Part shown: piece after piece, positions 49,073-50,535 of the stretch | Position numbering within the stretch: the stretch's first letter is position 1 | Layout of the letters: the number at the start of each line of letters is the position of its first letter | From: Oceanihabitans sp. 2_MG-2023 | GTDB lineage: Bacteria > Bacteroidota > Bacteroidia > Flavobacteriales > Flavobacteriaceae | Direction of reading: 5' to 3' | Length of the DNA: 64,000 bases | Assembly: GCF_030547245.1 (NCBI RefSeq) | Contig: NZ_JAUOQT010000003.1 | Coordinates: forward strand, 434,001-498,000 | Made by a program: the position numbers and the translations under genes | The notes under the pieces: model-generated | What the model saw: only the letters and a program-made list of their open reading frames with translations | What the model was told of the DNA's origin: nothing | Databases searched by the model: none

Positions 49073-49184
49073 CATTATTCCCAAATAAAAAAATATGTTT
49101 GATTATTCCATAAAAAAGGAATATATTTGATTATCACTCAATAAAGCGATAATTTTAATTATCACATAATAAGATGATAAATCA
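49073..49184 (+). repeat. Four 28-bp tandem repeats with palindromic cores: operator array
   Basis: Four 28-bp units start at 49073, 49101, 49129 and 49157, each beginning with ATTAT after one variable base. Units 2-4 hold palindromes TATTCC/GGAATA (49104-49123), TTATC/GATAA (49131-49152) and TTATCA/TGATAA (49159-49180), with centres at 113.5, 141.5 and 169.5 past 49000. Unit 1 keeps only the left half. The array covers the promoter of the next gene and ends at its first ATG. Confidence 0.8.
49099..49129 (+). promoter_or_regulatory. Promoter of satD inside the operator array
   Basis: TTG (49099-49101), a 20-bp spacer and TATATTTG (49122-49129): a full housekeeping match. The first full palindrome (49104-49123) fills the spacer, an ideal repressor site. 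A second -7-like box, TATGTTTG, lies exactly 28 bp upstream. Confidence 0.85.
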
Positions 49185-49219
49185 TGTTATCTCTTAAAAG
49201 AGAACAAAAATCAAAACAA

Positions 49220-49834
49220 ATGACAAGTATACTTACAGGGGATATTATCAAATCCCGCGGACAAAAAAATCCAGAGATTTGGCTTAGTCAATTAAAAGAG
49301 AGTCTATCGTATTTAGAACCAAACAATAAACACTGGGAAATTTATCGTGGAGACAGTTTTCAAATAGAAATTAAAGATGCTTTTAAAAGTTTTGAAGCTG
49401 CTATTTATATAAAAGCAGCAATTAAAATGATAAAAGGATTAGACGTTAGATTGGCTATTGGCATTGGCGAAAAAACATATCAAGGTAACGATGTAACAGA
49501 ATCTAATGGCGAAGCCTTTATTTTTTCTGGGGAAACTTTTGAGACTTTAAAAAAGGAAAAACAAAATTTAAAAATTAAAACAAAATCGGAAATACTTAAT
49601 AAGGAGTTGAATCTATATTTTAAACTAGCACTAATTAGTATGGATCATTGGACAGTCAATTCGGCAGAAATTGTTAAATTAACTTTAGAAAACCCGAAAG
49701 CATTACAAGAAGATTTAGGAAAAACAATTGGCATTAACCAAAACGCTATTAGCACTAGGCAAAAACGTGCCAATTTGGAAGAAATTTTAGCATTAAATGG
49801 CATGTTTAAGAAAAAAATAAACAGTTTAATATGA
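49220..49834 (+). CDS. SatD-family protein with cyclase-like domain and C-terminal HTH
   Basis: A 204-residue protein. The ATG at 49220 gives the usual MTSILTGDIIKSRG start; one at 49184 would add twelve residues. The order TGDIIKSR, YRGDSFQIEI, a long helix and LDVRLAIGIGE copies the metal and nucleotide strands of class III nucleotide cyclases in a shortened form; this reading is my inference. Near the C-terminus LQEDLGKTIGINQNAISTRQKRA has the pattern of a helix-turn-helix. It overlaps the DUF3307 gene by 4 bp (ATGA). The promoter lies in four 28-bp repeats, so self-repression is likely. Confidence 0.85.
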   Translation: MTSILTGDIIKSRGQKNPEIWLSQLKESLSYLEPNNKHWEIYRGDSFQIEIKDAFKSFEAAIYIKAAIKMIKGLDVRLAIGIGEKTYQGNDVTESNGEAFIFSGETFETLKKEKQNLKIKTKSEILNKELNLYFKLALISMDHWTVNSAEIVKLTLENPKALQEDLGKTIGINQNAISTRQKRANLEEILALNGMFKKKINSLI

Positions 49835-50535
49835 TACTACTTATTAAACTTTTATTGGCTCACTTTATTGGTGATTTCTTTTTGCAACCAGAAAAATGGG
49901 TAAAAGATAAAGAAGTAAAAAAACTAAAATCTCCAAAATTATATTTGCACATATTGATACATGTGCTATTACTTTTTATACTTCTTTGGGATTTTACACT
50001 TTGGTCAATCGTACTAATTATTGGTATTTCGCACTTTATTATTGATGCAACTAAACTTAGCATTCAAAAGAAGAAAACAAAACGATTACTTTTCTTTATT
50101 GACCAAGTTCTACATATTATGGTAATATTAATTACCTATTTTGTTTATACCAATTCAAAAATAGATTTTAAAGTACTTCTTTTAGAAGAAAACCTTCTTT
50201 TAATAACCTGTTTGGCATTTTTAACGCAACCAGTTGCTATACTAATGAAAATCCTTTTTACAAAATGGGATATTTCAAAACTTACAAAAGGGAATGAATC
50301 TTTAAAAGATGCAGGAAAATATATTGGTATTTTAGAACGTATTTTAGTGTTCACCTTTATTGTAGCAGACCATTGGGAAGCTGTTGGTTTTTTAATCACA
50401 GCAAAATCTGTATTTAGATTTGGGGATCTTAAAGAGTCTAAACACCGAAAACTTACTGAGTATATATTAATTGGTACGTTAATTAGCTTTGGTATTGCTA
50501 TATTAACTGGGCTCGTTTTTAAAATAGCCTTATAA
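49831..50535 (+). CDS. DUF3307 multi-pass membrane protein
   Basis: A 234-residue inner-membrane protein with six or seven helices. Polar pairs lie in or next to the membrane segments: His11 and Asp15 (HFIGDFFLQ), His40 and His44, His68 and Asp72 (SHFIIDATK), Asp91 and His95 (DQVLHI), plus the late GILERILVF and KSVFRFGDLK segments. The spacing (HxxxD) is reminiscent of intramembrane metal enzymes. Translation is coupled to satD through an ATGA overlap. Biochemical role unknown. Confidence 0.88.
   Translation: MILLIKLLLAHFIGDFFLQPEKWVKDKEVKKLKSPKLYLHILIHVLLLFILLWDFTLWSIVLIIGISHFIIDATKLSIQKKKTKRLLFFIDQVLHIMVILITYFVYTNSKIDFKVLLLEENLLLITCLAFLTQPVAILMKILFTKWDISKLTKGNESLKDAGKYIGILERILVFTFIVADHWEAVGFLITAKSVFRFGDLKESKHRKLTEYILIGTLISFGIAILTGLVFKIAL

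Follow-up and report, generated by a model that had tools for sequence, protein, structure and literature searches.

Palindrome arrays with fixed 28- or 29-bp spacing precede satD-like genes across Bacteroidota and point to a probable autoregulatory circuit

The repressor NrdR forms nucleotide-controlled oligomers on DNA boxes whose spacing is constrained, with 15-16 bp between the boxes and about three turns from centre to centre (PMC12051234, PMC9110341). As a small repressor that combines a nucleotide-binding with a DNA-binding domain, it is the best functional analogue, and not a relative, of the SatD-like protein that we analyze here in a 64,000-nucleotide stretch of the genome of Oceanihabitans sp. 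2_MG-2023 (the window). NrdR is built from a Zn-ribbon and an ATP-cone, which are unrelated to the SatD-like domains; it acts from two boxes on one helix face, whereas SatD arrays mostly place three or four sites 2.67 turns apart; and it regulates several ribonucleotide reductase operons, whereas the SatD-like circuit has a single target operon. The window protein does not qualify as an NrdR, because neither a Zn-ribbon nor an ATP-cone is among the Pfam matches listed for it and its predicted fold differs. A second resemblance is to class III adenylyl cyclases and GGDEF diguanylate cyclases (such as Ma1120, 4wp9, and DosC, 4zvg), which share the predicted fold of the N-terminal domain and have two Asp residues in equivalent places, although identity is only about 8-19% and the SatD-like domain is fused directly to a single helix-turn-helix (HTH). 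Known cyclase-HTH fusions, mycobacterial Rv0386 among them, are larger proteins of the LuxR type. The third resemblance, to the SatD family (PF16264), is one of sequence and lies in the relatives: 59 of 73 match this model at E<=1 (best E=1.6e-13). The window protein itself has no match at E<1, and a six-frame search of its genome found none, so the name satD, which a sequence-only reading had given to the gene, holds only through these relatives. The family owes this name to a Streptococcus operon rather than to the present context. No established regulatory function of the SatD family was found in the literature, nor were binding, expression or ligand data for any family member, and searches for SatD with DUF3307, the SatD family, DUF3307 and 28-bp operators (open-access papers only) returned nothing on the circuit.

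The genes and codons concerned are the following:

49220 to 49834, plus strand: SatD-like regulator of 204 aa, with a palm-fold domain (about residues 1-122) and a C-terminal HTH, as predicted by AlphaFold2 and fold matches
49739 to 49768, plus strand: codons of the predicted recognition helix (residues 174-183), in which residues 174, 175, 176 and 179 covary with operator bases
49831 to 50535, plus strand: DUF3307 membrane protein (PF11750, E=7.9e-31), overlapping the satD stop codon

In the AlphaFold2 model of the SatD-like protein (mean pLDDT 95.8), residues 1 to about 122 are predicted with high confidence to adopt the nucleotidyl-cyclase/GGDEF palm fold, including its beta-alpha-beta-beta-alpha-beta order. 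The top Foldseek match is the Ma1120 adenylyl cyclase (E=7.6e-4), and VIA against GGDEF and adenylyl cyclase domains aligned 112-135 residues with Z 9-10 (up to 9.9) and an rmsd of about 3 A. The two metal-coordinating acidic residues of this fold correspond to D8 (first strand) and D45 (second hairpin), both invariant in 73 sequences, an equivalence taken from secondary structure and not from superposition. The DUF2652 cyclase-like proteins (PMC4886424) were set aside as a different family, and neither the SatD-like protein nor the DUF3307 protein had a PADLOC defence-system match. A phage search also gave no match.

Upstream of the SatD-like gene lies an array of palindromic sites, which we interpret as operators, together with a putative promoter:

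49076 to 49095, no strand: operator site 1, TATTCC-N8-AAAATA, right half degenerate, centre 49085.5, in the 28-bp array
49098 to 49101, plus strand: putative -33 element TTTG, by sequence match
49104 to 49123, no strand: operator site 2, TATTCC-N8-GGAATA, a perfect palindrome between -33 and -7
49122 to 49129, plus strand: putative -7 element TATATTTG, fitting TAnnTTTG
49132 to 49151, no strand: operator site 3, TATCAC-N8-GCGATA
49160 to 49179, no strand: operator site 4, TATCAC-N8-ATGATA
49188 to 49207, no strand: degenerate site 5, left half TATCTC only

The sequence-only reading had described four 28-bp tandem repeats here, carrying inverted repeats with centres exactly 28 bp apart, and direct sequence checks agree on both points. 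Units begin at 49074, 49102, 49130 and 49158, the four full units spanning 49074-49185, and a weaker, degenerate fifth begins at 49186; each holds a 20-bp site of the form TATNNN-N8-NNNATA. The centres of sites 1-4 (49085.5, 49113.5, 49141.5 and 49169.5) are exactly 28 bp apart, and the array has two-fold axes both at the site centres and at the linker centres. The region matches itself at 64% for a lag of 28 and at 61% for a lag of 56, with every other lag tested at 42% or below. The palindromic-array score of the window is 57.4, a value reached by none of 1000 dinucleotide shuffles (best 40.8). Two half-site types, TATTCC and TATCAC, occur together in this array, so that one recognition helix must tolerate both, which remains unexplained beyond possible affinity differences.

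The TTTG -33 consensus is known for Bacteroidota promoters. At this locus, 20 bp separate TTTG from the putative -7 element; this putative promoter of Bacteroidota type sits inside units 1 and 2, and site 2 overlaps the 20-bp spacer, where the first of the reported palindromes had indeed been placed. The TAnnTTTG -7 consensus is documented for flavobacteria (PMC9723704). The start codon implied by the sequence-only reading, ATG at 49184, is probably wrong. Orthologues begin at the equivalent of 49220, with the family N-terminus M-x-(A/S)-V-I-T-G-D-I, and for this reason we place the start of the satD-like gene, in all probability, at 49220. Because the gene start moves there, we count site 5 (49188-49207) as part of the array, which then ends about 12 bp short of the corrected start codon. 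Better-formed counterparts of site 5 lie at -33 in two other loci (L032 and L033).

If this array were an operator of its own gene, repeats with the same spacing should stand before orthologous genes, as the sequence-only reading had proposed to check. A set of 156 orthologous loci, drawn from both the order and the phylum, was scanned for palindromic arrays with periods of 18-40. The expectation was met far beyond the genus: the top period was 28 in 86 loci and 29 in 47 (133/156 jointly, against about 14 expected by chance for both together). A score of at least 41 with a period of 28 or 29 was reached by 114/156 real loci, compared with 0/780 shuffles and 2/156 control stretches. These arrays contain two to seven sites, most commonly three (69/114). 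No 28/29 array emerged at about 15% of the loci, which include distant ones and ones at the end of a contig. Conservation covers the outer TAT/ATA and the spacing, and the inner bases change by clade: TATTCC is found in Lacinutrix and Winogradskyella, TATCAC in Xanthomarina, and TATTAC, TATCGG, TATCGT, TATAAG, TATATG and others in further clades. It is unusual for operator geometry to persist over a phylum when operator sequence does not; here contact between proteins can therefore be investigated separately from DNA specificity. A difference in protein spacer length between the 28- and 29-bp lineages was sought without clear result. In one locus (L028) the entire array now has a 29-bp period, and its close relatives (L013 and L025) still have 28, which suggests a concerted change of all units.

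Such regularity could in principle arise without any contact between neighbouring proteins. SatD would then still regulate itself, with independent dimers, and the 28 bp would merely reflect past tandem duplication or the distance between the -33 and -7 elements. The promoter distance in the window does equal the repeat period (TTTG to TTTG is also 28 bp), and the wholesale shift in L028 fits repeated duplication. Comparison of neighbouring units points the other way: identity is 87% in the half-sites, 55% in the site centres and 47% in the linkers, where composition alone predicts 31%. The linkers are thus slightly more alike than expected, as duplication would leave them, but they have diverged well below the half-sites, and yet more than 220 intervals hold 28 or 29 bp, some of them outside the promoter core. 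Half-sites that stay alike between diverged linkers imply that the spacing was held while other sequence drifted. Gammaproteobacteria, which have other promoters, also show 28: in the Pseudoalteromonas homologues L203 and L204, two TGTAAC-type sites lie 28 bp apart (judged by eye). We therefore consider independent dimers unlikely, although they cannot be set aside.

Autoregulation would also require that the SatD-like protein be the one that recognizes the array. The C-terminal HTH suspected in the sequence-only reading is supported by the AlphaFold2 model, which places its helices at residues 163-170 and 174-183, the latter being the recognition helix. We calculated mutual information between each protein column (about 200) and each operator position in 63 representatives, using the N-domain columns, which share the phylogeny of the HTH columns, as a control. 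Residue 179 ranks first for operator positions 4 and 6, where residue 175 comes second or third, and residue 176 ranks first for position 5. Residue 174 is top of the roughly 200 columns for position 2, a rank that rests on a single operator change in the set. Residues 174, 175, 176 and 179 occupy the positions that in a recognition helix classically face the DNA. The covariation z-scores carry no phylogeny correction; a nearest-relative pair test is a partial control: in 40 disjoint pairs, any of the four residues had changed in 14/17 pairs with different operators vs 3/23 with the same operator (Fisher p=1.5e-5), and random four-column sets equalled this result in 1/20000 draws. Taken singly, N-domain column 66 does as well in this test as column 176. 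The correspondence can be read as a code: E, D or G at residue 179 goes with C at position 4, and K or R mostly with T, while Q at residue 174 goes with A at position 2, and R with G. Natural switches include Q174R with TAT->TGT (L010, L016) and, between the close relatives L005 and L020, G179R with TATCGT->TATTCC. That operator bases covary with the SatD-like protein's own recognition helix points to direct binding; the evidence that the SatD-like protein reads its own operator is strong, comparative in kind and without binding data. The predicted helices and the covariation together match the C-terminal HTH to the operator, and a cyclase-fold/HTH protein thereby offers a readable recognition code.

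In the genome of the window, we found no other array above the rate of the control pattern, which makes the circuit look dedicated to its own operon. Single palindromes of the TATYMC type number thirteen vs five for the control pattern, and the only other perfect TATTCC/GGAATA palindrome lies inside a coding sequence. We accordingly rejected a wider regulon of arrays. The loose half-site pattern TATN14ATAN8TAT was uninformative, its count being equal to that of its control. A different regulator could still bind the array, with satD and DUF3307 merely its targets, given that direct SatD binding data are lacking and the excess of single palindromes leaves room for other sites. We think this very improbable, as the columns that covary with the operator are those of SatD's own recognition helix that face the DNA, the array occurs only at the satD locus, and the one other perfect site is in a gene.

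Comparative sequence analysis establishes the arrays, their 28/29 spacing, the covariation of operator and helix, the linkage to DUF3307 and, within the genome, the uniqueness of the array. We regard it as likely that the array serves a dedicated autoregulatory SatD circuit as its operator, with a cooperative, possibly nucleotide-gated repressor, in which binding, repression, cooperativity and ligand are inferred. In this proposed circuit, the C-terminal HTH would bind each TATNNN-N8-NNNATA palindrome through helix 174-183, and adjacent dimers would touch, locking the spacing at 28 bp (29 in some lineages). Since 28 bp is 2.67 turns, neighbouring dimers face different directions, and three units (84 bp) make eight turns. 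The protein would wrap along two to seven sites over the -33/-7 promoter, and the wrapped assembly would repress satD-DUF3307. The cyclase-fold N-domain would probably form the second of two dimer contacts and convey a nucleotide signal on which assembly or break-up of the oligomer depends, comparable to the ATP-cone of NrdR; two dimer interfaces, one on the HTH side and one on the cyclase-domain side, would suit both kinds of two-fold axis. Of the two modes left open by the sequence-only reading, wrapping or independent binding, we infer direct dimer-dimer contact and a wrapped or helical assembly because independent dimers need no fixed 28/29 spacing. Its multi-site operator for autorepression fares well as regards autoregulation, given the orthologue arrays, the covariation and the uniqueness, and less well as regards the sign. 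The TAnnTTTG box is present in 75 loci, and in 47/75 its first base falls within the right half-site of a site, at offset 16 or 18. It is because sites cover the -7 box that we infer repression rather than activation; steric repression is the simplest reading, and promoter overlap alone is no proof of it. That the repeats instead work in RNA, as leader hairpins, an attenuator or a riboswitch, is scarcely tenable and was rejected: sites 3-5 of the window do follow the putative -7 box, and the leader folds better than shuffles (z -2.9), as would any palindromic DNA, but most loci with a recognisable -7 box have no site starting downstream of it, which leaves the array largely untranscribed, a hairpin needs no fixed 28-bp pitch, covariation with the HTH would not be expected, and there is no Rfam match. 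The autoregulatory reading assigns a concrete role to a widespread uncharacterised family. It can be extended, tentatively, to a phylum-wide group of undescribed one-component regulators, in which the class III cyclase/GGDEF-type domain might sense or make a nucleotide and control a helical filament on 28-bp arrays, each dimer turned by 240 degrees, and so set the level of the membrane enzyme-like DUF3307; this wider picture is possible, and we hold it with much less confidence than autoregulation itself.

The DUF3307 gene directly follows the satD-like gene in 97/97 Flavobacteriales loci and lies downstream in 55/59 further Bacteroidota loci, tying this unknown membrane family to a testable regulatory input. 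The DUF3307 protein is all-helical with invariant H11, D15, H40, H68, D72 and H95; these His and Asp residues are suggestive of a membrane metal site, and the predicted fold had no PDB match (best E 1.8).

In addition, we noted satD-like genes in further settings. In three contigs classed as viral (L206, L207 and L208), satD-like genes stand behind palindrome arrays with a 29-bp period, for example GGCCGG/CCGGCC-like. A second Bacteroidales paralogue group (L179, L180, L184, L185 and L186) has an ORF of 100-160 aa, probably a membrane protein, between the satD-like gene and DUF3307. On a Segatella copri plasmid (L205, NZ_CP137558.1), DUF3307 follows a distant satD-like gene, and an IS1182 transposase lies alongside.
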